From Pseudacidovorax sp. (GTDB lineage: Bacteria; Pseudomonadota; Gammaproteobacteria; Burkholderiales; Burkholderiaceae_C): a stretch of 64,000 nt of DNA. The notes beneath the pieces were generated by a model. The model worked only from the letters and a program-made list of their open reading frames with translations, did not search any database and was not told the DNA's origin. Below are positions 9,108 to 27,102 of the stretch, one piece after another. Position 1 is the first letter of the stretch. Each line of letters begins with the position of its first letter. The position numbers were made by a program, and so were the translations under genes. The stretch spans positions 186,001 to 250,000 of the forward strand of contig NZ_JAGOPN010000001.1 of the NCBI RefSeq assembly GCF_017991995.1. Reading direction: 5' to 3'.

Positions 9108-10001
9108 ATGGCGCAGAAAGGCCGGCGCAAGGCGCTGCAGGAACAAGTCGAGCCGGCGGCGCGCCGGGTCCAGATGGGTGACGTTGACGGGCCTAAACGG
9201 CTCGTGCAGACCGATACTTTGGACGAGGCTGGGGCCGAACCCGCATCGCGCGCTTCCACCGCATCCAGCCTGTCCCGCCTGCTCGGCACCCTGGGCCTGT
9301 TCTCCACCGACACCCCCTCGCTCACCGTCGAGGAGATCGCCACCCGCCTGGGCGTGCCCAAGAGCACTGCCTACCGCTACATCCAGGAGCTGTCGAAGGT
9401 GGGGCTGCTGGTGCGGCTTGACCGCAGCATCACGCTGGGGCCGCGCATCATCGAGCTGGACCGCTGCATCCGCGAGTCCGATCCGGTGATCCGCGCCGCT
9501 GCGCCGCCCATGCGCGAGCTGGCCGAGCAGACGGGGCTGGACGTCTTCCTGTCCAAGCTCTACGGTCACTCCATCATCACGGTGCACACCGAATTCAACG
9601 ACCCGCTGCCGCATCTGCGCTACGGCCGTGGCCGGCCGGTGCCCGTGCCGCGCGGCGCCAGCGCCAAGGCGCTGGTGGCCTTCCTGCCCGCGGCGCGGCT
9701 GCGCCGGCTGCACCAGGAGCTGGCGAGCGAGTCGCCAGACACGCCGCCGTGGGAGGCCTTCTACGAAGAGGCGCAGCGCATCCGCCGTGAGGGCTACTGC
9801 CGCACCTCGGGCGAACTCAATGCGGGTAAGACCGGCGTGTCGGCGCCCATCTTCGGGCGCGGGCGGCTGGTGGTGGCCAGCGTCACGGCGCTGGGCAGCG
9901 ATGCGCGGCTGGCGCTCTTCGATTCCGAGGCCATCGCCGAACTCGTGCAGCGCACGGCCCACATGATCAGCGTGCGGTTGTCGGCGGACGGTCACTTGTA
10001 G
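9108..10001 (+). CDS. IclR-family transcriptional regulator
   Basis: A 297-residue regulator. After an unusual, basic and probably disordered N-terminus of about 50 residues comes the IclR winged helix: LFSTDTPSLTVEEIATRLG, then PKSTAYRYIQELSKVGLL as the recognition helix (given as its key run PKSTAYRYI). The ligand-binding domain follows with ETGLDVFLSKLYG-like residues and the closing motif TGVSAPIFG. It lies at the left edge of the catabolic island, convergent with the Bug/GST operon, and is paralogous to the regulator at 25260. The ATG at 9108 follows AAGGAAAG at good spacing. The effector is unknown. Confidence 0.88.
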   Translation: MAQKGRRKALQEQVEPAARRVQMGDVDGPKRLVQTDTLDEAGAEPASRASTASSLSRLLGTLGLFSTDTPSLTVEEIATRLGVPKSTAYRYIQELSKVGLLVRLDRSITLGPRIIELDRCIRESDPVIRAAAPPMRELAEQTGLDVFLSKLYGHSIITVHTEFNDPLPHLRYGRGRPVPVPRGASAKALVAFLPAARLRRLHQELASESPDTPPWEAFYEEAQRIRREGYCRTSGELNAGKTGVSAPIFGRGRLVVASVTALGSDARLALFDSEAIAELVQRTAHMISVRLSADGHL

Positions 10002-10068
10002 CCGACCGCTCGACATTGCGGTTCGTCTTGCCGGGAAGCGGGCGCAGTTCAGGACCGGCGGGCGACGC

Positions 10069-11067
10069 TTAGAAGACGATGTTCGCCTTCCTGACGATGG
10101 GCGCTGCAGCCGCCAGCGAGCGGCGCCAGGTTTCCAGCGCCTGAGCCGGTGTGCTCACCACCGGCTCCAGGCCCAGGGCCACCATGCGGGTCTGCACCTC
10201 GGTGTCGGCGGCGATGGCCTGCACCGCCGTCGCCAGCGTGTTCACCACCGGCGCTGGCGTGCCTGCAGGCGCGAAGACTGCGAACCAGCCGGCATTGCCC
10301 ATGTCGCGCACGCCCAGCTCCTCGAAGATCGGTACTGCGGGCAGCGAACGCACGCGCTGCAAACCGGTCACGGCCAGAGGCCGGACCGACCCGGCGGTCA
10401 CCATCGCCTCGACCGCCGCGACGGTCAGAAACACGGCGTCCACCTGGCCGCCCATCAGATCGGTGAGGGCAGGGGCCGAGCCCTTGTAGGGCACGTGCAG
10501 CAGCTCGATGCCGGCCGACTCGGCCAGCACCTCACCCATCACATGCGCGGAGGAACCCGCGCCGAAGCTGCCGTAGCTGAGCTTGTTGGCCTTGGCCCGC
10601 TGCAGGAAGGTGCGCAGGTCCTTGGCGGGACTGTCGGCTCGCACTGCGAGCACCAGCGGGGCGTTGGCCATCACGCTGACGATGGTGAAGGCCTCCTGCA
10701 TGGTCTTGCCGGGCACCACGGCCTGCTTGGACGCTAGGGCCGCGATCACGTGGGTGGAGTTGCTGCCGAACATCAGCGTGTGGCCATCCGCCGGTGCCTG
10801 GGCCACGGCGCGCGCCGCGATCAGGCCGTTGGCGCCCGGCCGGTTGTCGATGACGACCGTTCCGCCCAGTGCGGCCTGCAGCTTCTGGCCGATGAGCCGG
10901 GCCACGGTGTCGGTGCCGCCGCCCGCGGCGAAGGGCACCACCAGGTTGATCGGCCGATCGGCCAGGGTGGTGGCGTGTGCCAGGCCGGTGCACGTCGCGG
11001 CGAGCGTGGCAAGGAGCGCAAGGGCCTGGCGGCGCTGCGGGACGAAGGGCGTGGGAGATGAAGGCAT
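10069..11067 (-). CDS. Bug/TctC-family periplasmic substrate-binding protein
   Basis: A 332-residue binding protein of the tripartite tricarboxylate transporter type, which binds carboxylates in the periplasm. Residues 9-31 form a signal peptide that ends GLAHA. The mature start NLVVPFAAGGGTDTVARLI, the VIDNRPGANG loop and LLHVPYKGSAPALTDLMGGQVD are the family's ligand-contacting segments. No TctA or TctB membrane gene lies in the window, so it is an orphan receptor. It is the last gene of the minus operon GST-GST-Bug-Bug-Bug; gaps between these genes are 25-36 bases. The start was chosen at the Met before the signal peptide; an in-frame upstream extension lacks signal character. Confidence 0.9.
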   Translation of the reverse strand: MPSSPTPFVPQRRQALALLATLAATCTGLAHATTLADRPINLVVPFAAGGGTDTVARLIGQKLQAALGGTVVIDNRPGANGLIAARAVAQAPADGHTLMFGSNSTHVIAALASKQAVVPGKTMQEAFTIVSVMANAPLVLAVRADSPAKDLRTFLQRAKANKLSYGSFGAGSSAHVMGEVLAESAGIELLHVPYKGSAPALTDLMGGQVDAVFLTVAAVEAMVTAGSVRPLAVTGLQRVRSLPAVPIFEELGVRDMGNAGWFAVFAPAGTPAPVVNTLATAVQAIAADTEVQTRMVALGLEPVVSTPAQALETWRRSLAAAAPIVRKANIVF

Positions 11068-11092
11068 GGGAGGGGGCGGTAAGGGTTGGGCG

Positions 11093-12079
11093 TCAGTCGA
11101 CGCGGATTTGCCGCGCCTTGACGATGCGTGCATAGGTGGCGCGGCCGTCGGCGATGCGGGCTGCCATCTCCTCGGGCGTGCTGTAGACGGTGGTGAAGCC
11201 CAGGTTGCCGAAGGCCTTGGCCACGGGCTCCGAGGCCAGGGCGGTGCGCATGGCCTCGTTGAGGCGGGCCACGATCTCCGGCGGCGTGCCGGCGGGCGCC
11301 AGCAGGCCGAAGAAGCCCTGGATGGTCATCTCGGGCAGGCCGGCCTCGGCGGCGGTGGGAATGTCGGGGAAGGCCGGGTCGCGCCGTTCGCCGGTCATGA
11401 ACAGCGGAACCAGCTGGCCGGCGCGGAGCGCGCCGATCAGCGGTGAGGTCACTTCGTCCATCAACTGGGCCTCACCACGGATCACGGCATCCTTGGCCAT
11501 CACGGCGCCCTTGTAGGGCACGTGCACCACGGGCGCGCCCGTGGCGGCCAGGAAGATCTCGCCCAGCAGGTGGTTGCTGGAGCCCATGCCCGCGGACGCG
11601 AAGTTGAGCTGGCCCGGCTGGCGCTTGGCCAGCGCGACGAATTCCTGCACCGTGCGCACGCCCAGCGTGGGGCTGATGACGAAGACGAAGGACTGGGTCG
11701 CGCCCAGGCTCACGGGCACCAGCGTTGCCACATGGCCCTGGTCGGGATACAGCACGGGCGCGGCCGTCAGGCTGCTGCCGCTGCCCCACAGCAGGGTGTA
11801 GCCGTCGGGCCGCGCGAGCGCCGCGGCCTTGGTGCCGATGCGCCCGCCCGCACCCGTGCGGTTCTCGACCACGACCGGCTGCTTGAGCTCCCCCGCCAGT
11901 GCTTGCGCTACGGCGCGGGCCGAGATGTCGGTGGAGCCGCCCGGCTCGAAGGAGACGATGAGCGTGATGGGGCGCGAGGGCCAGGTATCGGCCCCTGCAG
12001 CCGTGCTCGCGAAGAGGCTGGCGGCTGCCAGTGCGAGGAGCAAGCCGGCGCGGCGGCGGGTGGCATCGAGAAGGGGCAT
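11093..12079 (-). CDS. Bug/TctC-family periplasmic substrate-binding protein, second of three in tandem
   Basis: A 328-residue orphan receptor with a signal peptide (residues 1-30, ending STAAGA). Family segments are VSFEPGGSTDISARAV, VVENRTGAGGRIGTKAAA, VHVPYKGAVMAKDAVIRG and the C-terminal GLLAPAGTPPEIVARLNEA. It differs from its neighbours in the ligand loops: EPGGSTDIS against AAGGGTDTV and PPGGGTDGA. The three tandem proteins are therefore diverged paralogs and probably bind different compounds. Twenty-five bases separate it from the next gene. Confidence 0.9.
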   Translation of the reverse strand: MPLLDATRRRAGLLLALAAASLFASTAAGADTWPSRPITLIVSFEPGGSTDISARAVAQALAGELKQPVVVENRTGAGGRIGTKAAALARPDGYTLLWGSGSSLTAAPVLYPDQGHVATLVPVSLGATQSFVFVISPTLGVRTVQEFVALAKRQPGQLNFASAGMGSSNHLLGEIFLAATGAPVVHVPYKGAVMAKDAVIRGEAQLMDEVTSPLIGALRAGQLVPLFMTGERRDPAFPDIPTAAEAGLPEMTIQGFFGLLAPAGTPPEIVARLNEAMRTALASEPVAKAFGNLGFTTVYSTPEEMAARIADGRATYARIVKARQIRVD

Positions 12080-12115
12080 GGCGGGTTCCGGTCGGCATCG
12101 CAATCGGTGCAGGTC

Positions 12116-13090
12116 TCAGTCCAGCGACACGTTGGCCTGGCGGGCCACGCGGCGCCATTTCTCCAGCTCCGCCTGCAGCTTGGTGCGGAATTGCGCGCCT
12201 TCGGCCGCCGTGACGACCACGCCACGGGCACCGAGCCTTGCCTCCATGTCGGGCGTGCGGATGACCTTGTCCAGCGCCGTGGCCAGCGTCTTGACGATGG
12301 CGGGCGGTGTGCCCGCGGGGGCGAACACGCCCATCCAGCCCTCGGCGACCAGGCCGTCATAGCCCAGCTCCTGCAGCGTGGGCACCTCGGGCAGGCTGGG
12401 CAGGCGCTTGGGCGAGGGCGTGGCCAGGGCACGCAGCTTGCCGGCCTTGATCTGCGGCAGCACGACAGCGGTGGTGTCGAAGGTGAAGTCCACGTCCCCG
12501 GCCAGCAGCGAGGACATTGCCTGCTGGCTGCCCTGGAAGGGCACATGCGTGGCGCGCGTGCCGGTGGCGTTCAGGAACAGCTCGCCGATGAGGTGGTTGG
12601 TCGAGCCCATGCCGAAGGACGAGTAATTGAGCTTGCCGGGCTGCGCCTTGGCCCTGGCAATCAATTCCTGCACGTTCTGCACCGGCGAGCCCGCGGGCAC
12701 GGCCAGCACGAAGGTCACGATGCCCACCTCGGTGACCGGCACGAAGTCCTTGAGCAGGTCGTAGGGCGCGGTCTTGCGCGTGACCGGGTTGATCAGCAGC
12801 TCGGCGCCGGTACCGAAGAACAGCGTCTGGCCATCGGGCTTGGCGCGGGCTACCGACTGCGCGCCGATGGTGCCGCCCGCGCCTGCGCGGTTGTCGATGA
12901 CGATGGACTGGCCCAGCTCGGGCGCCAGCTTCTCGGCAATGAGCCGGGCCGCGCCATCGGTGCCGCCGCCGGGCGGAAAGGCCACCACCAGGTGCACGGG
13001 TGCGGAAGGGTAGGCGGCCGGCTGGGCGCAGGCCATTGCCGGCGCCAGGGCTGCGAGGCCGGTGAGCAGAAGACGTCGCGACAACGGCAT
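12116..13090 (-). CDS. Bug/TctC-family periplasmic substrate-binding protein, first of three in tandem
   Basis: A 324-residue orphan receptor. It begins MPLSRRLLLTGLAALAP with a twin-arginine-like start but no strict SRRxFLK motif; cleavage is expected after AMACA. Family segments are VAFPPGGGTDGAARLI, IDNRAGAGGTIGAQSV and THVPFQGSQQAMSSLLAGD. The Met at 13090 was chosen because it directly precedes the signal peptide and follows AAGGAACG at normal distance. It lies 31 bases after the GST gene at 13122, in the same operon. Confidence 0.9.
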   Translation of the reverse strand: MPLSRRLLLTGLAALAPAMACAQPAAYPSAPVHLVVAFPPGGGTDGAARLIAEKLAPELGQSIVIDNRAGAGGTIGAQSVARAKPDGQTLFFGTGAELLINPVTRKTAPYDLLKDFVPVTEVGIVTFVLAVPAGSPVQNVQELIARAKAQPGKLNYSSFGMGSTNHLIGELFLNATGTRATHVPFQGSQQAMSSLLAGDVDFTFDTTAVVLPQIKAGKLRALATPSPKRLPSLPEVPTLQELGYDGLVAEGWMGVFAPAGTPPAIVKTLATALDKVIRTPDMEARLGARGVVVTAAEGAQFRTKLQAELEKWRRVARQANVSLD

Positions 13091-13121
13091 GGTCGTTCCT
13101 TGCGGGGAGTGGGAAAGGCGG

Positions 13122-13778
13122 TCAGTGCGCCGGCGCGGCGGCGGTTGCGGCGGCTCGTTCGCGCTCGCGCACGCCTTGCGCAGCGGCCGCCGCCTCGGCG
13201 GCGCGCACGCTGGGGCGGGCACCGCAACGCGCGAGGTAGGCCTCCAGGTGGGGCCACCCGCGCGTGTCGATGTCGTGGGCGCGGGTCCACATCGCGATCG
13301 TGTAGCAGTGGGCGTCGGCGATGGTGAAGTGCTCCCCGGTCAGGAAGGAGCGGCCGGCCAGTTGCTCGTCCACCCACTGCAGCTTGGCCTGCACGATGCG
13401 CCGTGCAATGGCCTTGTAGTCGGGCGGCGTGACGGCCTTGAACAGCGGCATGAAGCCGCCCTTGTGCAGGTCGGCCGCGATGAAGCTCATCCACTCCAGC
13501 ACGCGGTAGCGCGGCAGGCCCGAGGCGGGCAGCAGCGTGTTGCCCGGGCACTGGTCGGCCAGGTACTGCATCACGATGCAGCCCTCGCTCAGGTGTTGGC
13601 CGTCGGGCATCTCCAGCGTCGGCACGGTGCCCTTGGAGTTGACGCTGAAGTAGTCGCGGCCGTCCTCCAGCCGCTTGGTCTTCATGTCCACCCATTCGAG
13701 GGTGAGGGGCAGCTGCAGTTCGCGCGCGACGATGTCGACCGCGAGCGAGCAGCCGCGGACTTCGTGGTAAAGCTTCAT
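13122..13778 (-). CDS. Beta-class glutathione S-transferase
   Basis: A 218-residue cytosolic transferase with a thioredoxin-like N-terminal domain and a helical C-terminal domain. Beta-class features are the start MKLYHEVRGCSLAVDI, with Cys10 in the catalytic position, the cis-proline motif GTVPTLEM and the glutathione-binding acidic/Ser pair in LSEGCIVMQYLAD. The C-terminal domain contains ERFTIADAH-like residues (here EHFTIADAHCYTI). It is paralogous to the next gene. Position beside a ring-attacking operon suggests glutathione conjugation, dehalogenation or isomerisation of an intermediate; that is inference. An Ala-rich tail of about 20 residues is low in complexity. Confidence 0.88.
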   Translation of the reverse strand: MKLYHEVRGCSLAVDIVARELQLPLTLEWVDMKTKRLEDGRDYFSVNSKGTVPTLEMPDGQHLSEGCIVMQYLADQCPGNTLLPASGLPRYRVLEWMSFIAADLHKGGFMPLFKAVTPPDYKAIARRIVQAKLQWVDEQLAGRSFLTGEHFTIADAHCYTIAMWTRAHDIDTRGWPHLEAYLARCGARPSVRAAEAAAAAQGVRERERAAATAAAPAH

Positions 13779-13807
13779 GCGGGTTCTCCGGAAAGGGCGG
13801 ATGGGGT

Positions 13808-14434
13808 TCAGGCACCGGCGCGGCGGGCGATCTCGACGCGTTCGGCAGCGCGCGCCGCCTGCACGCTGGGCCGCGCATCGATGCGCTGGACATAGGCATG
13901 CAGGTGCGGCCAGGCCGACAGGGCAATGGCCTGCAGCTCGGCCCACGTGACGATGGCGTAGGCATGGGCGTCCGCGGCGGTGAAGCGGCCGCCGTGCAGG
14001 TACTCGCGCGTGGCGAGCACGTCGTTCAGCCAGGTCAGACGGCGCTGCACGTTCTCGGTGGCGATGCGTCGGTATTCGGGCGGCGTGTTCGCGCGGAACA
14101 GGGGCGTGAAGCTCTTGTGCAGCTCTGAGCCGAGGAAGTTCATCCACTCCAGCACCCGGTAGCGATCCATGTCGAGGGCGCGGGGCAGCAACGCGTCGGC
14201 GCCGTGCAGGTCGCACAGGTACTGCACGATAACCGCGGCCTCGGTCAGCACCTGGCCGTCGTCCGTCGCCAGGGCGGGCACCTGGCCCTTGGGGTTGACC
14301 CGGTGCAGGTCGCTGCCGTCGGCCAGCCGCTTGGCGCGCACGTCCACCCAGGCCAGATCGAGTTCGACGCCGATTTCGCGCGCCACCACGTCCACGGCCA
14401 GTGCGCAGGTGTGGGGGGTGAGATAGAGCCTCAT
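13808..14434 (-). CDS. Beta-class glutathione S-transferase, first gene of the minus operon
   Basis: A 208-residue paralog of the neighbouring GST: start MRLYLTPHTCALAVDV with Cys10, then GQVPALATDDGQVLTEAAVIVQYLCD and RFTAADAHAYAIVTW near residue 150. The shared features KRLxDGxDxxxVNxKG and LEWMNFLGSELHKSFTPLF indicate a local duplication. It begins the five-gene minus operon and is divergent from the Bug gene at 14939 across a 504-base control region. The Met at 14434 is at the family-typical start; an upstream in-frame Met would add residues without family character. Confidence 0.88.
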   Translation of the reverse strand: MRLYLTPHTCALAVDVVAREIGVELDLAWVDVRAKRLADGSDLHRVNPKGQVPALATDDGQVLTEAAVIVQYLCDLHGADALLPRALDMDRYRVLEWMNFLGSELHKSFTPLFRANTPPEYRRIATENVQRRLTWLNDVLATREYLHGGRFTAADAHAYAIVTWAELQAIALSAWPHLHAYVQRIDARPSVQAARAAERVEIARRAGA

Positions 14435-14938
14435 CGCGCCGCACTCCGGTCGCGGTCGCCGTGAGGCGGGGTGGTGCACGCATGCACCAGCTTGTTGCAT
14501 AGGGTCGAATGCATGGTCATTGGATTACTGCTATGCGATAAATGTGCCATCCGCGCCAGGCGCGTCGTGCTGGTGTAACTACTCAATGCCAACCATCCGG
14601 TGGATGCCGGCCGTGCACCTGCTTCGGGAGATCGACGTCTCGCTGGCCCAGGCTGCCCACCGTGGCTGTTATCGCATGGCGGGAATATCGAAAAGACAGG
14701 GCAGGCGCGCGCATGGAACATTAGTTGCTTGCTGGGATCGCGTATGGATGAAATGGTGCATTAGGTGAAAACACCAGCGTCAAATAATAGTGCTGTGTTT
14801 TGTCTAAACGAGAAAACAGCATACTATTTGGTTGCCGACGAGGTGTCCGATGCCGCCGCCGTCCATTGCCGCCCAGGCGCGTCTCCCCCGGCGCCTGGTG
14901 CCGGCCCCGTCTTCGCAGGGGTGCCAAGGAATCGTGCA
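14435..14938. other. Divergent control region of the catabolic island
   Basis: This 504-base region has no convincing gene. It separates the minus GST/Bug operon from the plus ThDP/SDR/hydroxylase operon and so must hold both promoters. It is clearly more AT-rich than the flanks between about 14760 and 14835, where an imperfect dyad lies (listed separately). A TTGCATAGG...GGATTACTG run near 14493-14528 could hold a promoter, but I see no consensus pair. Confidence 0.6.
14782..14829. promoter_or_regulatory. Imperfect AT-rich dyad, candidate IclR operator
   Basis: The left arm AAATAATAGTGCTGTGTTTT (14782-14801) and the right arm AAAACAGCATACTATTT (14813-14829) are imperfect inverted repeats around an 11-base centre. 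The matching cores are GCTGT...TTTT and AAAACAGC, with outer AAATA/TATTT. The site lies in the only AT-rich part of the divergent control region. Two IclR regulators flank the island, so an operator is plausible. Binding is not shown. Confidence 0.5.
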
Positions 14939-15925
14939 ATGAGAAGGAAATTCGTTCTTCAGGCCTGCGGTGCCATCGCACTGGCGGTCGCTTCGTGGTG
15001 GATGCCGCTGCAGGCTTCGGCCCAGGGCAACTGGCCTTCGCGGCCCATCCGCATCGTGGTGCCCTACCCACCAGGCACCGGGCCCGACGTCATGGCCCGG
15101 CTGGTGGCCGACGGCCTGGGCAAGGAGCTCAAGGCGTCCATCGTGGTGGAGAACAAGGCCGGGGCCAACGGCATCATCGGCACGTCGGAGGTGGTCAAGG
15201 CGCCGGCCGACGGCTACACCTACCTGCTGGTCGACCGGCTGACCCTCACGGTCAATCCGCTGCTCTATCAGCCGCCCTACGACCCGAAGAAGGACCTGGT
15301 CTCCGTCAGCAACATCGCCGACGTGAACCTCTACCTGGTCACCAGCGCGCAGCTGCCGGCCAACGACTTCAAGTCCTTCATCGCCTACGCCAAGGCAAAC
15401 CCGGGCAAGGTCAGCTTCGGGACCGGCGGCGTGGGCAGCGTCATGCACCTGAACATGGAGCTGCTGCAGTCCGGCACCGGCGTGCAGTTCCTGCATGTGC
15501 CCTACAAGGCGCTGGCCGAGGTCATCCCGGCCATGCTGGGCGGGCAGGTCGAGGCCACCTCCGGCGGCGTCGAGGCCATGCTGCCCTATGTGCAGAAGGG
15601 CAGCTTCAAGCTGCTGGCGGTGGGCGCGCCCACGCGCCAGACCATCGTGCCCAACGTGCCGACCATCATGGAGGCGGGGGGCTCGGACATGCTGCTGTCC
15701 ACCTCGTATTCCTTCCACGCGAAGAGCGGCGTGCCGCCCGAGATCCTGGCGCGCATGAACGAAGCGCTGACCAAGGTGCTGTCGCAGCCCGAGCTCAAGC
15801 GCTGGGCCGGTGAGCGCGGCCTGGGTGCGGGTGCGTCGACGCCCGCGGAGCTGGATGCGCGCATCGCCGTGGACAACGACCGCATCGGCCGCCTGGTGCG
15901 CGAGCGCGGCATCAAGGTGCAGTGA
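14939..15925 (+). CDS. Bug/TctC-family periplasmic substrate-binding protein heading the plus operon
   Basis: A 328-residue orphan receptor: MRRKFVLQACGAIALAV signal peptide, cleavage expected after LQASA. Family segments are RIVVPYPPGTGPDVMARLV, VVENKAGANGIIGTSEVVKA and FLHVPYKALAEVIPAMLGGQVEA. It lacks the usual GGxTD in the first ligand loop (PPGTGPDV), which suggests a ligand different from those of the three tandem proteins across the control region. The ATG at 14939 follows GTGCAATG; the ribosome site is weak (AAGGAATC). The ThDP enzyme gene follows after 41 bases. Confidence 0.9.
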   Translation: MRRKFVLQACGAIALAVASWWMPLQASAQGNWPSRPIRIVVPYPPGTGPDVMARLVADGLGKELKASIVVENKAGANGIIGTSEVVKAPADGYTYLLVDRLTLTVNPLLYQPPYDPKKDLVSVSNIADVNLYLVTSAQLPANDFKSFIAYAKANPGKVSFGTGGVGSVMHLNMELLQSGTGVQFLHVPYKALAEVIPAMLGGQVEATSGGVEAMLPYVQKGSFKLLAVGAPTRQTIVPNVPTIMEAGGSDMLLSTSYSFHAKSGVPPEILARMNEALTKVLSQPELKRWAGERGLGAGASTPAELDARIAVDNDRIGRLVRERGIKVQ

Positions 15926-15966
15926 CGCACCGCTTTTCCAGACACGAGCAAAAGAGGACATCGGCG

Positions 15967-17529: not shown

Positions 17530-17571
17530 CGTCCTGCGACGGGCCGCAACGCATCCAAGGAGCAATCGAAC

Positions 17572-18366
17572 ATGGACCTCAGACTCAAGGGCAAGGTGGC
17601 CGTCGTGACCGGCGGCAGCCTGGGCATCGGCCGCGCGGTGGCCGAGGCCTTCGCGGCCGAAGGCGTGCGCGTGGCCATCGTGGCCCGCAGCCAGGGCGCG
17701 CTGGAACAGGCCGCGCGCGAGATCACCGAAAAGACCGGCACCGAAGTGCTGGCCGCCCCCGCCGACGTGAGCGACACGGCGCAGGTGCAGGCGGCCGTCG
17801 ACAAGGTGGCGGCGCACTTCGGCCGCATCGACATCCTCGTCAACGGCGCGGCCCATCCGGGCGGCCTGGTGCGCAGCGAGATCGAGAACGCCGACCCCGA
17901 AGGCCTGCTGCAGGACATCGACATCAAGGTGGTGGGCTACATGCGCTTTGCCAAGGCCTGTGCGGCGCACATGCGCAAGGGCGGCTGGGGCCGCATCGTC
18001 AACATCGGCGGGCTCACCGGTCGCGGCAGCAAGCAGCTGTCGGGCATGCGCAATGTGGCCGTGGCGCACATGACCAAGACGCTGTCCGACCAGCTCGGCC
18101 CCTCGGGCATCACCGTCAACGTGATCCATCCCGGCGTGGTGGAGACGCCGCACATCCACGAGCTTTATGCCAAGGAGGCCAAGCTGCAAGGCCTGACGCC
18201 CGCGCAGGTGGAGGCCAACTACGCCAAGGCCACGCCGATCCGCCGCGTGCTTCAGGTGGACGAGATCGCCGACGTGGTGCTCTTCCTCTCGTCCGACCGG
18301 GCGGCGGCCATCACCGGCGAATCCATCGCGGTCGATGGCGGCATCACCCGCGGCATCTTCCTCTGA
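17572..18366 (+). CDS. SDR-family protein lacking the catalytic Ser-Tyr-Lys triad
   Basis: A 264-residue Rossmann protein. The coenzyme site looks intact: TGGSLGIGRAVAEAF near residue 13, PADVSD near residue 64, NGAAH near residue 90 (normally NNAG), and ITVNVIHPG near residue 182. In the active site, the normal S...YxxxK is absent: the segment reads NIGGLTGRGSKQLSGMRNVAVAHMTK (residues about 145-170). Aligned on the flanking GRIVNI and AVAHMTKTL, Ser is replaced by Gly, Tyr by Ser and Lys by Asn. It may therefore be a non-redox or altered enzyme. Start after an AAGGAGC ribosome site; 29 bases before the next gene. Confidence 0.85.
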   Translation: MDLRLKGKVAVVTGGSLGIGRAVAEAFAAEGVRVAIVARSQGALEQAAREITEKTGTEVLAAPADVSDTAQVQAAVDKVAAHFGRIDILVNGAAHPGGLVRSEIENADPEGLLQDIDIKVVGYMRFAKACAAHMRKGGWGRIVNIGGLTGRGSKQLSGMRNVAVAHMTKTLSDQLGPSGITVNVIHPGVVETPHIHELYAKEAKLQGLTPAQVEANYAKATPIRRVLQVDEIADVVLFLSSDRAAAITGESIAVDGGITRGIFL

Positions 18367-18395
18367 GACACGCAACCATCCAAGGAGCGAGCGAC

Positions 18396-19433
18396 ATGAA
18401 CGGAACCATTCTGGTGGGCACGGCGGGGCAGGGCATCCTGCGCAGTGTGGACGACGGCGCGACCTGGCACCGCCTGGGCCTGAAGGAGGCCATCGAGTTC
18501 GACGGCACGGTGCGGGCACTGGCGGTGGACCCCGCCGACCCCAGCCGGGTGCTGGCAGGTGCGGACGTGGGCATCTGCCTGTCCACGGACGGCGGCGCCC
18601 ACTTCCAGCGCATGACCTCGCCCGCGGACGGCCAGACGGTCTGGGCGCTGGCATTCAGCCCCACGGACCCCCGCTTGGTGCTGGCCGGCACCGGCGCGCC
18701 CTCGCGGGCCTGCATGTTCCGCTCGCGCGACGGCGGCCTGAGCTGGGAGCAGCTGAACGTGGAGCTGCCCGAGTTCTGCGCCGGCGTGCACCGCCCGCGC
18801 ATCCTGACCATCGCCTTCCATCCACAGAAGGCCGGCGAGGCCTGGTTCGGCGTGGAGGAGGGCGGAGCCTGGCGCACCCGCGACGCCGGCGACAGCTGGG
18901 AGCGCATCGACACGCCCGGCCGCGGCATCAACAACTCCGATATCCATGCCATCGCGGTGCTGCCGGCCACGGCCGACGCACCGGCCAAGCACATCGTCGT
19001 CACCGTCAATTCGGTGTGCGAGAGCACGGACGATGCCGAGAGCTTCCGCTGCCACCCGTCGAAGGACCGTTTCGACGGCCTCTACTACACGCGCACGGTA
19101 CAGCCGCTGGACGCCGAAGGCAGGCAACTGCTGCTGGCGATCGGAGACGGCACGCCGGGCTCGCGCACGCGCATCTACCGCTCGGAGGACCGCGGCCAGA
19201 CCTGGGCGCAGACCCTGCTGAACACGGCGCCCAACTCCACCGTCTGGGCCTTCGGCACGCATGCCAGCGACCGCGGCCTGCTCTTCGCCGGCACCAAGTA
19301 CGGTCATTTGCTGCGCTCCACCAACGGTGGGCGCACCTGGTTCAAGGAATGGCGCGACTTCAGCGAGATCACCTCGGTGGCCTGGACGCCCTTCGTGGCA
19401 CCCGTGCACGCCCATCCGCAGTCCATCAACTGA
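18396..19433 (+). CDS. Cytoplasmic Asp-box (BNR-like) beta-propeller protein
   Basis: A 345-residue protein with seven Asp-box-like turns: SVDDGATW, STDGGAHF, SRDGGLSW, TRDAGDSW, STDDAESF, SEDRGQTW and STNGGRTW. Their spacing implies a seven-bladed propeller of the sialidase/Ycf48/photosystem-assembly type. There is no signal peptide, so it should be cytoplasmic, unlike most sialidases. The Arg triad of true sialidases is not evident. Inside this operon it could be a lactonase, hydratase or scaffold; I cannot tell which. An AAGGAGC ribosome site precedes the ATG. Confidence 0.82.
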   Translation: MNGTILVGTAGQGILRSVDDGATWHRLGLKEAIEFDGTVRALAVDPADPSRVLAGADVGICLSTDGGAHFQRMTSPADGQTVWALAFSPTDPRLVLAGTGAPSRACMFRSRDGGLSWEQLNVELPEFCAGVHRPRILTIAFHPQKAGEAWFGVEEGGAWRTRDAGDSWERIDTPGRGINNSDIHAIAVLPATADAPAKHIVVTVNSVCESTDDAESFRCHPSKDRFDGLYYTRTVQPLDAEGRQLLLAIGDGTPGSRTRIYRSEDRGQTWAQTLLNTAPNSTVWAFGTHASDRGLLFAGTKYGHLLRSTNGGRTWFKEWRDFSEITSVAWTPFVAPVHAHPQSIN

Positions 19434-19449
19434 TCCGCAAAGGTTTGCC

Positions 19450-19941
19450 ATGAACACCCTCGCTCCCGCAGCTGCCGCCGAGCCCGTTCGCCCCCGCATC
19501 CGCCGCACCCATCTGGCGTTGTTCGTGAAGGACCCCTTCGCTTCGGCGCCCTGGTACGAGGAGGTGCTGGGCATGCAGGTCACGGCGCGCGGCGCGCGCT
19601 GGGTGTTCCTCTCCTTCGGCCAGAAGCACCACGACATCGCGCTGATCCAGGTCGACGAACCCGAGGCGGCCAGCCGGGGCAGCGTGAACATGCAGCACTA
19701 CGGCCTGGAGATCGAGGGCGGCCTGGACGACCTGCGCCGCCTCTACGGCATGCTGCTGCGCAAGAACGTGGAGGTGGTCAAGACCACCGACCACAAGGTG
19801 GGCTACGGCCTCTACTTCCACGACCCGGACGGCCATCGCTTCGAGTTCTTCCTGGAGACGGTCCACGACGACGAGGAAGGCCGCCGGCTGCTGGGCGAGT
19901 ACAACGCGCCCAGCGATTCCTTCGACCTGCAGCCGCTGTGA
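19450..19941 (+). CDS. VOC-family protein, possible extradiol-type dioxygenase or isomerase
   Basis: A 163-residue protein with the vicinal-oxygen-chelate fold of two beta-alpha-beta-beta-beta modules. Likely metal ligands are His in RRTHLALFV (near residue 22), His in QHYGLEI (near residue 84) and Glu in HRFEFFLE (near residue 138). That 2-His-1-carboxylate set is used by extradiol dioxygenases and some lyases. HDPDGHRFEFF is a classic VOC ending. The neighbouring flavin hydroxylase and alpha/beta hydrolase make ring cleavage plausible, but the chain is shorter than most two-domain ring-cleavage enzymes. Sixteen bases separate it from the propeller gene. Confidence 0.83.
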   Translation: MNTLAPAAAAEPVRPRIRRTHLALFVKDPFASAPWYEEVLGMQVTARGARWVFLSFGQKHHDIALIQVDEPEAASRGSVNMQHYGLEIEGGLDDLRRLYGMLLRKNVEVVKTTDHKVGYGLYFHDPDGHRFEFFLETVHDDEEGRRLLGEYNAPSDSFDLQPL

Positions 19942-19982
19942 GCCGCAGGCCGCGAACCTTCACTGATCCATCGACACGCACC

Positions 19983-20585
19983 ATGAGCAACCCCGACCTC
20001 AGCGCCTTCCACATTCGCAAGTGGTACCTCCAGATCGAGGACACCCTGGCCGGCGAGACCGGCGCCCCCGCCGACGGCGAGCCGCTGCGCAAGATCGTCA
20101 TCGCCGCCTGCCTGCGCAACCCCTTCGCGGGCCGCTATGTGCAGGACCTGTCCGAATGGATCGGCCCATCGCCCGAACTCGGCAAGGAGTTCGGGCGACG
20201 CATCCGCGAGGCCGCCGCCGGCCAGCGCATCGAGAGCTACGGCAAGGCCTGCCTCGTCGGCATCGATGGCGAGTACGAGCACGGCAATGCGCTGCTGACC
20301 AACCCCGCGGCCAACCCGGTGCGCGAAGGCGTGGGCGGCGGCAAGTCCTGGGTGCCGTCCACCGGCAAGCGCGGCGGTCCGGGGACGATCATCGACATCC
20401 CGCTCGCGCACAAGGACGCGCTGTACGTGCGCTCGCACTACGACACCGTCTCCACCATGTTCGGCGACGGCCCCAACCGCGACGAGGTGGTGCTGATCTG
20501 GGCCTTTGCCACCCGCGGCCGGCTCAATGCCCGCCTGGGCGGCCTGAAGGCCTCGGAGGTCAAGGGCGAGGACGGCCTGGTCTGA
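19983..20585 (+). CDS. DUF1185 / 'amino acid synthesis' family protein
   Basis: A 200-residue protein recognised by IRKWYLQIEDTLAGETG, AACLRNPFAGRYVQDLS, SYGKACLVGIDGEYEHG and the ending VWAFATRGRLNARLGGL-like (here IWAFATRGRLNARLG). The family (Pfam 'amino acid synthesis protein', formerly DUF1185) has structures but no established reaction. It is often next to Bug proteins and catabolic genes in Burkholderiales, as here. The Met at 19983 is preferred to an earlier in-frame Met because homologs begin close to it. It sits 20 bases before the hydrolase gene. Confidence 0.82.
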   Translation: MSNPDLSAFHIRKWYLQIEDTLAGETGAPADGEPLRKIVIAACLRNPFAGRYVQDLSEWIGPSPELGKEFGRRIREAAAGQRIESYGKACLVGIDGEYEHGNALLTNPAANPVREGVGGGKSWVPSTGKRGGPGTIIDIPLAHKDALYVRSHYDTVSTMFGDGPNRDEVVLIWAFATRGRLNARLGGLKASEVKGEDGLV

Positions 20586-20605
20586 GCGCGGCGGGAGAGC
20601 CATCG

Positions 20606-21478
20606 ATGCAACGCCGCGACCACCGCCTGAGCCTGAACGGCCTGGGCTTCCATGTCACCGAATGGGGCGAGCCCGATGCCTGGCCGGTGCTGATGCTGCA
20701 CGGCATCCGTGGCTATGCCGAGACCTTCGCCGGCGTGGCCGCCGCGCTGCAGCCGGGCGTTCGCGTCATCGCCTTCGACCAGCGCGGCCGCGGCGAGACC
20801 GACTGGGACCCGAAGCACGACTACTACACCGATGCCTACGTGGCCGATGTCGAGGCGCTGGTGGCGCAACTGGGCCTGCAGCGCTTCGACCTGCTGGGCC
20901 ATTCCATGGGCGGCATCAATGCGATCGTCTATGCAGCGCGGCACCCGCAGCGGCTGCGCCGCCTGGTCATCGAGGACGCCGGCCCCGGCGCCTTCGAGGC
21001 CAGCGATGGCGCCACCCGCATCCGCAAGGAACTGGCGACCACGCCCACCACCTTCGCAAACTGGGACGAGGCCGCGGGCTTCATGCGCGCACTGCGCCCC
21101 ACCGTGACCGAAGAGGCGCGCCAGCAGCGGCTGCGGAACATGCTCAAGCCGCTGGCGGGCGGCGGCTTCACCTGGCGCTACGACCACGCCGGCATCGTCG
21201 CCACGCGGCTGAACCCCGACCCGGCCCGCAAGGTGGATCTGGCCATGCATGTGGAGCAGCTGCGCTGCGAGACGCTGGTGGTGCGCGGCGGCCGATCCGA
21301 CTATCTGCAGCCGGCCATGGTCGCGCACATGCAGGCGCTCAATCCGCGCATCGCCGCCGTCGAGATTCCCGACGCCGGCCACTACATCCACGACGACCAG
21401 CCGGCGCTGTTCGCCGAGGCCGTCACTGCCTTCCTGAAGCGGCCCGACGGCGCCGCCAGCGATCCGATCCGACCATGA
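20606..21478 (+). CDS. Alpha/beta hydrolase
   Basis: A 290-residue cytoplasmic hydrolase. Oxyanion-hole motif LHGIRG lies near residue 32, the nucleophile elbow GHSMGG near residue 99, a candidate acid Asp in RGGRSDYLQP near residue 232, and the catalytic His in DAGHYIHDDQP near residue 259. The cap is short. The overall form suits a meta-cleavage-product hydrolase or an ester/lactone hydrolase. In this operon it may act after the VOC or hydroxylase step. The stop overlaps the next start (ATGA). Confidence 0.86.
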   Translation: MQRRDHRLSLNGLGFHVTEWGEPDAWPVLMLHGIRGYAETFAGVAAALQPGVRVIAFDQRGRGETDWDPKHDYYTDAYVADVEALVAQLGLQRFDLLGHSMGGINAIVYAARHPQRLRRLVIEDAGPGAFEASDGATRIRKELATTPTTFANWDEAAGFMRALRPTVTEEARQQRLRNMLKPLAGGGFTWRYDHAGIVATRLNPDPARKVDLAMHVEQLRCETLVVRGGRSDYLQPAMVAHMQALNPRIAAVEIPDAGHYIHDDQPALFAEAVTAFLKRPDGAASDPIRP

Positions 21479-21771
21479 TCCACGAACTGCGAACCTACAC
21501 CCTGGTGCCCGGCGGCGTGCGCGACTACCTGCGCATCTACAACGAGACCGGCCGCGAGCTGCAGACCCGCACCCTCGGCCGCCTGGTCGCACTGATGACG
21601 CCCGAGAGCGGCGATGTGAACCAGCTGGTCTTCCACTGGGCCTTCGACAGCCTGGACGAGCGCAGCCGCCGCCGTGCAACGCTGATGGCCGACCCGGCCT
21701 TTGCCGAATTCCGCAAGCAGGTGCGCCACCTGCTCGTGCGGCAGGAAAGCCGGCTGCTGTCTGCGGCCTGA
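21475..21771 (+). CDS. NIPSNAP-family small protein
   Basis: A 98-residue ferredoxin-like protein that starts MIHELRTYTLVPGGVRDYL, the hallmark of NIPSNAP proteins, and contains LVFHWAFDSLDERSRRRATL near residue 50. These proteins often dimerise and accompany catabolic enzymes; a catalytic role is not proven. The ATG overlaps the hydrolase stop, so the two are coupled. Confidence 0.85.
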   Translation: MIHELRTYTLVPGGVRDYLRIYNETGRELQTRTLGRLVALMTPESGDVNQLVFHWAFDSLDERSRRRATLMADPAFAEFRKQVRHLLVRQESRLLSAA

Positions 21772-21802
21772 GGCCAACCGTTCCCGATCCAGGAGTCCCC
21801 CC

Positions 21803-23512
21803 ATGAGCTCGCCCGTGGAAGAAGAAGTCCCCGTCCTCATCATCGGTGCCGGCCCGGTCGGCGTGACGCTGGCCAACCTGCTGGGTACCTACGGGGTGCG
21901 GACGCTGGTGGCCGAACGCAGCCCCGCGGTGCTGGACTTCCCGCGTGCCGTGGGCCTGGACGACGAAGCCCTGCGCACTTTCCAGGCCACCGGCCTGGCC
22001 GACGAGATGCTGCGGGACATGATCCAGAACGTGCCGATGCGCATGTACACGGCGCGCAAGCAGTGCTTCGCCGAGATCCTGCCCAGCACGCGCGAATTCG
22101 GCTGGTTCCGGCGCAACCTGTTCTCGCAGCCGCTGGGCGAGAAGACGCTGCGGCGCGGGCTGGCGCGCTTTGCCGACGTGCAGCTGCGGCTGGGCCTGGA
22201 GCTGGTCGCGCTGGCGCAGGACGAGGACGGCGTCACCGCCACCCTGCGCGACGAAGCCGGGGCCGAGCAGCAGGTGCGCGCCGCCTACGTGGTGGCCTGC
22301 GACGGCGGCCGCAGCACCGTGCGAGAGATGCTCAAACTGCCCTACGAGGGCCGCACCCATCCGGCCAAGTGGGTGGTGATCGAATGCGACCAGGACCCGC
22401 TGGACGCGCCCTACACCGCGCTGCACTGCGAGCCCGAACGTCCCTATGTCTGCCTGCGCCTGCCCTACGGCCTGCGCCGCTGGGAGTTCATGCTCTTCCC
22501 CGGCGAGGACGGCGAACAGATGCTCGCGCCAGACAAGGTGCGCGAACTGCTGGGCCGCCATGTGGCCGATCCGGCCGCGCTCAACGTGATCCGCGCCCGG
22601 GTCTACACCCACAACTCGCGCGTGGCGGCCCGTTTCGTGAGCGGGCGCATCTGCCTGGCCGGCGACGCTGCGCACATCACGCCGCCGTGGATCGGCCAGG
22701 GCCTCAACGCGGGCCTGCGCGATGCCTTCAACCTGGGCTGGAAGCTGGCCTGGATCCTCCAGGGCCGGCTGCGGCCCGAACTTCTGGCCAGCTACCACGA
22801 CGAGCGCCATGCCCATGCCAAGGCCATGATCGACCTGGCCGACACCTTCGGTGCCGTGCTCTCGCAGCGCAATGCCTTGCTGGCCTGGGTGCGCGACCGC
22901 TTCTTCATGGCCATCCGTGGCATTCCCGCGGTGCGCGACTACGTGCTGCAGATGAAGTTCAAGCCCATGCCGCGCTTCGTGCGCGGCGTGGTGCGCAACA
23001 GCGGCGTTGCGGCGCGCGATGCGCTGGTGGGGCGCATGTTCATCCAGCCCAACGTGGAGCGCCGCCGCGGTGGCGCCGAGAAGCTGGACGACGTGGTCGG
23101 CGCGCGCTTCGCGCTCATCAGCTGGCGCTGCGATGCGCTGGCCGATGCGCCGCCTTCGCTGCGTGAGCAGCTGGCGCGCCTGGGTTGCGACCACTACCTG
23201 GCGGTGCGCTCGCGCAGCGCCGGCAACGAAGCGGGCTCCCCCATGCCGCTGCAGCCCTCGGGCACCGTGATCGAGGACCTGGAGAACGGCCTGCACCTGT
23301 GGTTCCAGGGCAAGGACGTGGACTGGGTGCTGATCCGGCCCGACCGGTTCATCGCGGCCGTCGGTCGCCGCGACGACGCGGCGGCGGAACTGGGCGCCTT
23401 CTGCGACACGGTGCTTGCGCCGATCGACGCGGCGCGTGCCGCGCAGGTGATGGCGCCCGCAGGGAGGGCGGCCGAGCCTGCCCCTGCCCAGACCGACGCG
23501 ATCGCCGCCTGA
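21803..23512 (+). CDS. MhpA-like FAD-dependent aromatic hydroxylase
   Basis: A 569-residue single-component flavin monooxygenase. FAD-binding GxGxxG motif [15 protein letters not shown] is near residue 12, the DG motif [13 protein letters not shown] near residue 168, and the GD motif [19 protein letters not shown] near residue 285 (full signature given by key residues GD, P and G). The C-terminal thioredoxin-like domain is present. It most resembles 3-(3-hydroxyphenyl)propionate hydroxylase-type enzymes, which add a hydroxyl group to a phenolic ring using NAD(P)H and O2. The substrate here is unknown. The ATG follows AGGAG at 21791-21795. Confidence 0.9.
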
Positions 23513-23636
23513 CGACGTGCTCCCCTCTCCCGCGAGGGCAGAGGCCGTCATCCCCCGACCCCGCGCGGCCCCGCCGCCAGGCGTCGGCCTGCGCCGCGGA
23601 CCCTGCCGCCGCCTTCCGCCCGCTCGACCTAAGTCC

Positions 23637-25064
23637 ATGTACCCCGAACTCTCCCTCTACATCGCCGGCCGCTTCATCGGGGCCGAAGGCCGCCGCACGC
23701 AGGCCGTGCAGGACCCCGCCACGCTTCAGACGCTGGGGCAGCTGCCCTGGGCCGAGGCCGAAGATGTGGCGTCCGCGGTCGATGCCGCCCACGCCGCCTT
23801 CGGCCAGTGGCGCCGCGTGTCGCCCGTCGAGCGGTCGGACCTGCTGCGACGCGTCGCCGCGCTGGCGCGCGAGCGCGCCGCGGTCATCGGCCACGCCATG
23901 ACGCTGGACAACGGCAAGCCGCTGGCCGACGCGGTGGCCGAGGTGCTCAATGCCGCCGAGCATGTGGAGTGGCATGCGGAGGAGGGCCGGCGCATCTACG
24001 GCCGCGTGGTGCCGGCGCGCCAACCGGGCGTGCGCCAGCTGGTGGTGCGCGAGCCCGTCGGCGTGTGTGCCGCCTTCAGTCCCTGGAACTTCCCCTTCGG
24101 CCAGGCCATGAAGAAGGCCGCTGCCGCCATCGCCGCCGGCTGCCCCATCGTGCTCAAGGGGCCGGAGGAATCGCCCAGCGCCCTGGTGGCCATGGCGCAG
24201 CTCTTCCACGACGCAGGCCTGCCGGCAGGGGTCTTCAACCTGCTGTGGGGCGTGCCGGCGGACATCTCGCGCCAGCTGATCGAAGCGCCATCGGTGCGCG
24301 TCGTCTCCTTCACCGGCTCGGTGCCCGTGGGTCGGCAACTGGCGGCGCTGGCCGGGCAGCACATGAAGCGCATGACCATGGAGCTGGGCGGCCACGCGCC
24401 GGTGCTGGTCTTCGACGATGCCGACGTGGACGCCGCCGTCGCGCTGCTGGCGCGGCTGAAGACGCGCAATGCCGGCCAGGTCTGCGTCTCGCCGAGCCGC
24501 TTCTACGTGCAGTCGGGCATCCACGACCGCTTCGCCGCCGCCTTCGCCGAGGCGCTGGCTGCCGTGAAGGTGGGACATGGCCTGGAGTCCGGCGTGCAGA
24601 TGGGGCCGTTGATCCATGGACGGCGCTTCCAGGCGGTGCAGGCGCTGGTCGAAGACGCCCGCGCGGCCGGCGCCGAGCTGCTGACCGGCGGCGGCGGCCT
24701 GGGCGCGCAGGGCCACTTTCACGCGCCCACGCTGCTGGTGCAGGTGCCGCCCGGCGCGCGCGTGATGCACGAGGAGCCCTTCGGCCCCGTCGCCGCGATG
24801 GCGCGCTTCGACACCGTGGAAGAGGCCCTGCAGCAGGCCAATGCCTTGCCCTTTGGCCTGGCCAGCTATGTGTTCACCCGGTCGCTGCAGACCGCCACCT
24901 GCGTGGGCGACGGTCTGGAGGCCGGCATGGTCAACATCAACCATTCGGGCATGGCCCATCCCGAGCTGCCCTTCGGCGGCATCAAGGGCAGCGGCTTCGG
25001 CAGCGAAGGCGGCACCGAGTCCTTCGACCCCTTCCTGAGCACCAAGCTGATTACGCAGGCGTGA
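23637..25064 (+). CDS. NAD(P)-dependent aldehyde dehydrogenase
   Basis: A 475-residue ALDH. The catalytic Cys is in [14 protein letters not shown], the general-base Glu in [12 protein letters not shown], the coenzyme-binding Lys in [10 protein letters not shown], and the [11 protein letters not shown] turn precedes the Glu. The [12 protein letters not shown] motif is present. Length and motifs fit the succinate-semialdehyde/benzaldehyde-type group. It probably oxidises an aldehyde made by the ThDP enzyme or by hydrolytic cleavage, which is inference from the operon. A 124-base gap separates it from the hydroxylase, longer than other gaps in this operon. Confidence 0.9.
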
Positions 25065-25259
25065 AGCGACCCCAGGCCGCCCACAGCCGCCTGCGAGAGG
25101 CCCGGCACGCAGGCCGCATTCCTCGCGTCGGGGTGCGGGCCGTCCCGCCGCGCAGGGCCGGGTGCGGCCCGGAGCGGCGAGGTGCGTGGCGGAGAATGCG
25201 GGCCTGCCGCGCCCCCGCGGCTTCCTCCCGCTTTGCCACGCCGACCGCGCTTCCTGACG

Positions 25260-26000
25260 ATGAACAGCCTCCGACGCATGCTCGATGTCCTCGACCTCTT
25301 CCGGCCCGACCAGCCGGTCATCGACGTCGAGATCATCTGCCAGCAGCTCGGCTACACCCCGGCCAGCGCCTACCGCTACCTGCGCGAATTGGGCGATGCC
25401 GGCCTGCTGGTACGGCTGCCGCGCGGCTATGCGCTGGGGCCGCGCATCATCGCGCTGGAGCACCAGATGACCGACTACGACCCGGTGCTGGTGCGTAGCC
25501 GTGATCTGGTCGAGAAGCTGGTGGCCGAGACCGGCCTGGACGCCATGATCAGCGAGTGGTACGGCGATGCGGTGGTCAACGTGCTGATCCGGCGTGGCCC
25601 CGACCCGGGCCCGGCGGGCGGTGGCCGCGGACGGCCCATCGACCTGTTCCATAGTGCGACCTCGCGCGTGGTGCTGGCCTACCTGCTGCCGCGGCAGATC
25701 CGCCGCATCTTCGATGCCCATGCCAGCACGCCCGAGGCGCAGGCCCAGGGCCTGGAATGGAAGGCGTTCTCCAAGGGCCTGCTCGCCATCCGCAAGCAGG
25801 GCTACTGCATCAGCGAGAGCGAACTGCATGCGGGTCGCACCGGCGTGGCGGCGCCCATCTTCGATGAGAAGCAGCGCGTGCTGGGCAGCATGACGCTGGT
25901 GGGCCGCAACGAGCGCTTCCGGGCCTTCCAGGAAAGCTACCTCTGCAACCTGGTGACCACGGCCGCCGCCGAACTCACGGCGCGCATTGCGCAGCAGTAG
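25260..26000 (+). CDS. IclR-family transcriptional regulator at the right edge of the island
   Basis: A 246-residue regulator with the winged helix VIDVEIICQQLGYTPASAYRYLREL near residue 20 (recognition run TPASAYRYL), and an IclR ligand domain with ETGLDAMISEWYG and TGVAAPIFDE. It aligns along its length with the regulator at 9108, sharing PLG-type ALGPRIIALE and SELxAGxTGVxAPIF. The two regulators flank the island. The ATG at 25260 gives the standard short N-terminus. A 195-base GC-rich gap with no gene precedes it. Confidence 0.88.
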   Translation: MNSLRRMLDVLDLFRPDQPVIDVEIICQQLGYTPASAYRYLRELGDAGLLVRLPRGYALGPRIIALEHQMTDYDPVLVRSRDLVEKLVAETGLDAMISEWYGDAVVNVLIRRGPDPGPAGGGRGRPIDLFHSATSRVVLAYLLPRQIRRIFDAHASTPEAQAQGLEWKAFSKGLLAIRKQGYCISESELHAGRTGVAAPIFDEKQRVLGSMTLVGRNERFRAFQESYLCNLVTTAAAELTARIAQQ

Positions 26001-27007: not shown

Positions 27008-27028
27008 GCGTGCTCCTTGCCTTGGCGC

Positions 27029-27072: not shown

Positions 27073-27102
27073 GTTATATCTGCTGTGCAGCAAGTATCAC
27101 CC

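Follow-up and report, generated by a model that had tools for sequence, protein, structure and literature searches.

A seven-gene locus of Pseudacidovorax, conserved across two phyla, that probably opens a phenolic ring by meta-cleavage

Introduction

What pathway, if any, is encoded by a run of genes in which substrate-binding proteins, glutathione transferases (GSTs), a thiamine diphosphate (ThDP)-dependent enzyme, a beta-propeller and a flavin hydroxylase stand side by side? The question arises from a 64,000-nucleotide stretch of Pseudacidovorax sp. (assembly GCF_017991995.1, contig NZ_JAGOPN010000001.1, positions 186,001 to 250,000; hereafter the window). In it, an initial annotation had described an uncharacterised catabolic island between paralogous IclR regulators, and had proposed hydroxylation of a phenolic acid, cleavage by a VOC protein, hydrolysis, and finally decarboxylation and aldehyde oxidation of a side product. 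All the genes that it named are present, as judged by gene calling guided by third-position GC content (GC3), by translation, which supplied the hydrolase and NIPSNAP frames missed in the calling, and by Pfam/NCBIfam matches. Seven of them, spanning 15967-23512, form the core of the locus: TPP (the ThDP-dependent enzyme), SDR (an SDR dehydrogenase), PROP (the beta-propeller), VOC, DUF1185, HYD (an alpha/beta hydrolase) and HYDROX (the hydroxylase). On balance, we think that this core probably serves a catabolic route in which a phenolic ring is opened by meta-cleavage, the best reading of its substrate being a phenolic aryl-alkyl compound.

Results

Seven genes are kept together in two phyla

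Loci were collected through aligned hydroxylases in the genomes of GTDB species, keeping the best 80 of 99 relatives. In 67 of these 80 loci the seven core genes are all there, with order and strand unchanged, over a span of 6.5-9.8 kb, so the possibility that gene order might not be conserved anywhere, raised in the initial annotation as grounds for abandoning the idea, does not hold. The hosts are beta- and gammaproteobacteria and Actinomycetota, and include Pseudacidovorax, Variovorax, Hydrogenophaga, Herbaspirillum, Achromobacter, Pigmentiphaga, Marinomonas, Vibrio, Acinetobacter, Streptomyces, Nonomuraea and one binned genome titled Methylocystaceae. Among the 13 exceptions, four loci stop short at the end of a contig (L105, L117, L119 and L121), one is without DUF1185 and the hydrolase (L104), three mycobacterial ones are rearranged and run off the fetched stretch (L128, L135 and L138), and five have distant hydroxylases (38-40% identity) and no core (L142 and L144-L147). 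Compared pair by pair, the distances within the seven gene families are correlated (r 0.72-0.97, the species signal included), as would be expected of a co-inherited unit. Given such a distribution of the locus, its substrate is probably common in soil, plants or the sea.

Among 399 sampled genomes of the order, one of them the window's own, a hydroxylase of at least 60% identity was found in a single other genome, G410, and the same genome alone carries a propeller at that level (64%). Its locus reads IclR2 relative (55%), TPP, SDR, PROP, VOC, DUF1185, HYD, HYDROX, sulfatase, Bug and ALDH (aldehyde dehydrogenase), with the IclR2 relative adjoining TPP in divergent orientation (L057); no NIPSNAP gene was found in it. 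The enzymes shared with the window are 59-78% identical, and the Bug protein 42%. Public annotation of a further copy, on a Burkholderia pyrrocinia plasmid, is piecemeal: acetolactate synthase, sialidase family protein, amino acid synthesis family protein.

The island as a whole does not behave as the single unit that had been described. GSTs, Bug proteins, NIPSNAP and the IclR pair are variable parts lying outside the core: near the core of the 67 complete loci, a NIPSNAP gene (at least 40% identity) is found in 40, ALDH (at least 55%) in 32, and relatives of IclR2 and GST1 (both at least 55%) in 22 and eight respectively.

The ring-opening proteins

Phenol hydroxylation, VOC cleavage and hydrolysis, as first proposed for this uncharacterised locus, are borne out at the level of sequence by three of the core proteins. 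Over 517 amino acids HYDROX shares 43% identity with E. coli MhpA; it is 26-35% identical to five other FAD hydroxylases, each encoded beside a VOC gene. HYD is 27% identical to MhpC, and its S100, D232 and H259 are invariant across 18 sequences.

VOC is likely a ring-cleaving dioxygenase. Nine of its residues (H21, H60, H61, D62, H83, D114, H115, Y122 and E132) are invariant across 19 sequences, and H61, H115, Y122 and E132 align with H199, H246, Y255 and E265 of XylE, the catechol 2,3-dioxygenase of pWW0; XylE H153 was matched with VOC H21 by eye only. The alignment takes in most of the active site of catechol 2,3-dioxygenase. In a profile search of the PDB, once three RecA chains are disregarded as artefacts, VOC has its best credible match in 9u42, by its title a homogentisate 1,2-dioxygenase of Acinetobacter. 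The equivalog level of the hpa models is missed both by VOC (29 bits on HpaD, cut-off 321) and by the window's ALDH (366 bits on HpaE, cut-off 638).

Pairing of an FAD hydroxylase with a single-domain VOC protein recurs beyond this operon, at L186:9515-11762, L188:9429-11729, L190:8270-10569 and 12606-14604, and L191:7806-9867.

A copper amine oxidase and the side-chain enzymes

A copper amine oxidase gene is found in 15 of the 80 loci, all of them actinobacterial. A whole-genome search of 17 actinobacterial hosts gave one to six such genes in 15 of them and none in two (L106 and L123). In each of the 15 genomes having one, a copy stands beside the operon: inside the locus in ten, and 2.6-5.8 kb from TPP, as seen in an extended stretch, in the other five (L110, L111, L126, L141 and L143). 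Since a genome of 6-14 Mb holds so few copies, this adjacency would not be expected by chance, and it suggests a side chain of the aryl-alkylamine or aryl-2-oxoacid type that would enter through the ThDP enzyme, SDR and ALDH. Two copper amine oxidase subtypes are seen beside the operon, and three Streptomyces genomes (L115, L118 and L120 with the adjoining contig) have two of the genes some 15-18 kb apart around it.

The closest PDB relatives of TPP are benzoylformate decarboxylases, with which it shares a glutamate and the first histidine in the alignment. In actino- and gammaproteobacterial loci an ALDH gene directly follows TPP, and the two products scanned (L110 and L136) match best the StyD model for phenylacetaldehyde dehydrogenase, with 590 and 649 bits.

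The propeller and the DUF1185 protein

The AlphaFold model of PROP (pLDDT, the model's own confidence measure, 91.5) has as its nearest PDB entry 3b7f, a putative glycosyl hydrolase with BNR repeats. Many arginines, aspartates, glutamates and tyrosines are invariant over 23 PROP sequences, a pattern that would fit a binding or active site. The DUF1185 protein scores 222.6 bits on PF06684 (gathering cut-off 27), a family with solved structures 2qtp and 3byq. Distant propellers (31-38% identity) were also seen near TctC/Bug genes in L058 and L063-L066, where the rest of the operon is absent.

Recurrent neighbours of the core

Several further genes recur around the core. A sulfatase-family gene (at least 65% identity) is present in 14 of the 80 loci, directly after HYDROX in 12, about 3 kb downstream in L087 and elsewhere in L101. 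An MhpD/HpaH-type hydratase occurs in eight, all gammaproteobacterial; a weaker sulfatase row (L106, 30%) and two hydratase rows (L142 and L144, 31-32%) were left uncounted, and some recurrent protein clusters, judged to be antisense shadows of real genes, were not annotated. There is a nitroreductase in 15 loci, an amino-acid-permease-type transporter in 24, DUF1302 in 12 and DUF1329 in ten; the last two also occur in gene clusters for hydrophobic substrates.

Comamonad loci L070-L079 carry a second ALDH and a nitroreductase downstream. The one such ALDH scanned, from L077, is a succinate-semialdehyde dehydrogenase (SSADH) by TIGR01780 (745 bits, cut-off 646), and scores 814 bits on a narrower model with a cut-off of 828; relatives with 58-81% identity are present in all five other Burkholderiales or gammaproteobacterial loci compared. 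In Herbaspirillum huttiense a methyl-accepting chemotaxis receptor directly follows ALDH (L086:13156-14763), hinting at chemotaxis towards the substrate; the receptor cluster is present in five loci altogether.

Layout and genomic setting of the island

The features of the island are collected in Table 1. GST2, GST1, Bug3, Bug2 and Bug1, on the minus strand, diverge from the series running from Bug4 to ALDH on the plus strand. Starts were assigned for VOC (19450), NIPSNAP (21475), HYDROX (21803) and ALDH (23637).

Table 1. Genes of the Pseudacidovorax island (positions in the window)
Feature	Position	Strand	Remarks
IclR1 regulator	9108..10001	+	Pfam IclR_C/HTH_IclR; just inside the left edge at 9056
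Bug1, TctC-type substrate-binding protein	10069..11133	-	PF03401
Bug2, TctC-type substrate-binding protein	11093..12103	-	PF03401
Bug3, TctC-type substrate-binding protein	12116..13222	-	PF03401; frame overlaps GST1, true start may be downstream
GST1, beta-class glutathione transferase	13122..13778	-	NCBIfam GstA equivalog 211.6 bits, cut-off 198
GST2, beta-class glutathione transferase	13808..14500	-	NCBIfam GstA equivalog 213.9 bits, cut-off 198; PDB GSTs
Bug4, first gene of the right-hand operon	14939..15925	+	PF03401; start picked from sequence
TPP, ThDP-dependent enzyme related to benzoylformate decarboxylase, core gene 1	15967..17529	+	NF005760 661 bits, cut-off 363
SDR dehydrogenase, core gene 2	17572..18366	+	PF13561; conserved
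PROP, BNR/Vps10-type beta-propeller, core gene 3	18396..19433	+	PF15902/PF02012
VOC, single-domain dioxygenase-like protein, core gene 4	19450..19941	+	PF00903; H21, H83 and E132 candidate metal ligands
DUF1185/AA_synth protein, core gene 5	19986..20585	+	PF06684
HYD, MhpC-like alpha/beta hydrolase, core gene 6	20606..21478	+	S100, D232 and H259 invariant
NIPSNAP-family protein, frequent, not universal	21475..21771	+	PF07978
HYDROX, MhpA-type FAD hydroxylase, core gene 7	21803..23512	+	PF01494 (FAD_binding_3); NF004831 764 bits, cut-off 546
ALDH, aldehyde dehydrogenase	23637..25064	+	TIGR01780 (SSADH) 472 bits, below cut-off 646
IclR2 regulator	25182..26000	+	Pfam

The left edge of the island is sharp: homology to four Pseudacidovorax congeners (G542, G543, G549 and G550) starts at 9056 in three of them and at 9062 in the fourth, and on the right it ends at about 26006 in two congeners. 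The flanks of G542 and G549 agree with each other and differ from those of G550 and of the window; G543 has too little flank for this comparison. The surroundings of the island thus differ from one Pseudacidovorax genome to another, which suggests that it is transferred in one block. To its left in the window, a run at 61-7540 of somewhat lower GC3, ending in TrbI (6221-7540), probably belongs to a trb-type conjugation region that borders the island; we saw no convincing gene at about 7900-9056. We rejected the idea that the island is cargo of this trb region, since the sequence left of 9056/9062 in the four congeners is unlike the window.

An IclR gene does lie at each end of the island, as had been described, but the two, both on the plus strand, are only 36% identical and do not mark a conserved boundary. 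IclR2 is directly beside ALDH in the window, follows a nitroreductase gene in Pseudacidovorax L068 and L069, and in G550, where it is 99.6% identical, stands 16 kb from ALDH, after which come another ALDH gene, a nitroreductase gene and DUF1302/DUF1329 genes. These distances and the intervening genes indicate that the window probably carries a shortened form of the island. Both the 16 kb gap and the scarcity of IclR2 relatives led us to discard paired IclR genes as the limits of the locus. Likewise discarded was a part for the GSTs (51% identical to each other) in the core chemistry, whether opening lignin ethers or isomerising maleylpyruvate: both are GstA-type, and GST1 relatives are near few of the complete loci.

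Scans of the window gave no Rfam family at the gathering score and no tRNA, and an inverted-repeat scan for regulator sites gave weak signals only, which were not used. Beyond the island, an open frame at 26887-28290 encodes an aspartyl-protease-like domain and, after it, a PDZ domain.

Discussion

A pathway for phenolic aryl-alkyl compounds

The ring would be opened in three steps for which the sequences argue. The MhpA-type flavin hydroxylase HYDROX would add a hydroxyl group beside the phenolic one to give a catechol, the single-domain VOC dioxygenase would cleave this catechol at its predicted His-His-Glu site, and the MhpC-like HYD would split the ring-fission product. Before hydroxylation, SDR, TPP and ALDH may shorten the side chain of an aryl 2-hydroxy or 2-oxo acid to an aryl-acetaldehyde and then an aryl acid, with aryl-alkylamines entering through the copper amine oxidase in actinobacteria. 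We place these enzymes upstream because a StyD-like ALDH adjoins TPP and because the amine oxidase would yield the same kind of aldehyde, and both points lean towards a first action of TPP and ALDH on the side chain and away from a last one on a side product, as initially proposed. More tentatively, the substrates of DUF1185 and PROP might be ring-fission products, either isomeric forms or ones cyclised to a lactone or pyranone, and succinate semialdehyde might be an end product. This position of DUF1185 and PROP is suggested by analogy with two pathways that have DUF1185 members, that for trigonelline and that for 7-hydroxycoumarin, of which the latter includes a dioxygenase step (PMC7913881, accessible text). 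Bug proteins would import the acid and IclR proteins regulate the locus, GST and NIPSNAP being accessories.

A bolder form of this proposal seems to us possible rather than probable: that phenolic aryl-alkylamines and the corresponding aryl-2-oxo acids are degraded here by a meta-cleavage pathway that crosses phyla and has not been described, with PROP and DUF1185 as obligatory enzymes that have new activities on the ring-fission product.

Several observations weigh against the meta-cleavage reading as a whole. TPP is without the histidine that we take to be H281 of benzoylformate decarboxylase, the StyD scores of the ALDHs next to TPP stay below the cut-off of 850, and XylE H214 aligns two residues off VOC H83. 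Foldseek ranks the VOC model closest to FosA/FosB thiol transferases, and for this reason we call dioxygenase activity likely and not more. Two of the recurrent neighbours are below curated cut-offs, the sulfatase with 325 bits on its best model, PehA (cut-off 900), and the hydratase with 108 bits on HpaH (cut-off 351). In the window's island itself no SSADH or hydratase gene was seen, its own ALDH being under the SSADH cut-off. Copper amine oxidase genes are present in three of 14 proteobacterial genomes searched, and in none of them at the locus. Propellers of at most 38% identity occur apart from the other operon genes in seven loci examined, and a collection anchored on the hydroxylase is silent on how often other core genes occur without HYDROX.

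Other explanations for the locus

The nearest competitor is a bicyclic or otherwise bulky phenol, such as a coumarin, a flavonoid or a lignin unit, whose ring HYDROX, VOC and HYD would open, with DUF1185 and PROP opening a lactone or pyranone and TPP, SDR and ALDH processing the fragment. In published clusters an FAD monooxygenase is accompanied by a VOC/glyoxalase-type protein and by alpha/beta hydrolases (PMC11069340 and PMC12911418, in their accessible parts), hcd holds the DUF1185 protein HcdD (PMC7913881, likewise), and the DUF1302/DUF1329 genes near 12 and ten loci would suit a hydrophobic substrate. We nevertheless think it rather unlikely: HYDROX is closer to MhpA than to the five VOC-flanked hydroxylases, neither the core nor the recurrent extras, as far as these were annotated, showed a cupin gene, and the amine oxidase link would need a separate explanation. 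Slightly less credit goes to a side chain of the mandelate type, in which amine oxidase and ALDH would turn octopamine-like amines into an aryl-glycolate, SDR would give an aryl-glyoxylate, TPP would decarboxylate it and ALDH would deliver a hydroxybenzoate to HYDROX and VOC. This is where the solved relatives of TPP would lead, and TPP, SDR and at least one ALDH do occur together in actino- and gammaproteobacterial loci; but TPP reaches 212 bits on the benzoylformate decarboxylase equivalog, failing its cut-off of 493, and ordinary hydroxybenzoate routes would leave the ring-opening genes needless.

Automatic annotation of the hydroxylase would suggest yet another reading, the ordinary 3-(3-hydroxyphenyl)propionate (mhp) pathway, its dioxygenase exchanged for another. 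That HYDROX passes the NCBIfam cut-off for MhpA-type enzymes and HYD is MhpC-like speaks for it; we regard it as quite improbable, however, as no MhpB or MhpD relative was detected among the island proteins at an E-value of 1e-3, and that pathway has no step for PROP, DUF1185, TPP or SDR, which nevertheless travel with the others in 67 of the 80 loci. As for a chance run of unrelated metabolic genes, only the varied annotation would favour it, and so many complete, ordered loci across two phyla refute it, leaving it with practically no weight. Opening of a phenolic aryl-alkyl compound by meta-cleavage is the reading that we retain. Solving the pathway would supply a reaction for two protein families for which we found none (DUF1185 and this propeller), test whether single-domain VOC proteins cleave rings and put gene names right in many genomes.

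Comparison with known systems

Among known systems, mhp of E. coli K-12 (mhpABCDFE) shares with the locus an MhpA-family hydroxylase and an MhpC-type hydrolase, and two gammaproteobacterial relatives that we compared carry an MhpD-type hydratase (27-30%). In contrast to mhp, the island has VOC instead of MhpB and no MhpD relative, and adds TPP, SDR, PROP and DUF1185.

By gene content, the 7-hydroxycoumarin cluster hcd of Pseudomonas mandelii 7HK4 is alike in having a hydroxylase (HcdA), a dioxygenase (HcdB), a hydrolase (HcdC) and a DUF1185 protein (HcdD), for which its authors failed to show an effect; it differs in also having a reductase (HcdE) and a cupin (HcdF), and the accessible part of its description names no ThDP enzyme, SDR or propeller (PMC7913881). 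The DUF1185 protein of the island also belongs to the same family, PF06684, as TgnF and BB2672 (structures as above). TgnF is said to stimulate the oxidation of succinate semialdehyde by TgnE, and in the accessible literature on the family no catalytic role is established for a PF06684 member (PMC7913881).

In the ifc genes for isoflavones of Variovorax and the fde genes for naringenin of Herbaspirillum, again compared by gene content only, an FAD monooxygenase and then a dioxygenase annotated as a putative glyoxalase act on the A-ring, and an alpha/beta hydrolase is encoded close by; unlike the island, these clusters have cupins and not DUF1185 or a propeller, as far as the accessible texts go (PMC11069340, PMC11303751, PMC8552027). 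We had considered equating the VOC/FAD pairs of Herbaspirillum and Variovorax (L186 and L188) with fde and ifc, and dropped the idea: their VOC proteins are 28% identical, against the 65.8% given for the ifc and fde proteins in the accessible text of PMC11069340, so that at most one of the two equations can be right. The acetosyringone cluster asd of Pseudomonas rhizophila AS1 has an FAD monooxygenase, a VOC protein and two alpha/beta hydrolases, and its five named genes include, in the part of the source available, no ThDP enzyme, SDR, propeller or DUF1185 (PMC12911418).

In the open-access literature, accessible in part and with subscription papers mostly outside this scope, we recognised no description of the present gene set. 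The set therefore appears to be undescribed within that literature, but the idea of a hydroxylase, a dioxygenase and a hydrolase acting in succession is already there in hcd, ifc/fde and asd.

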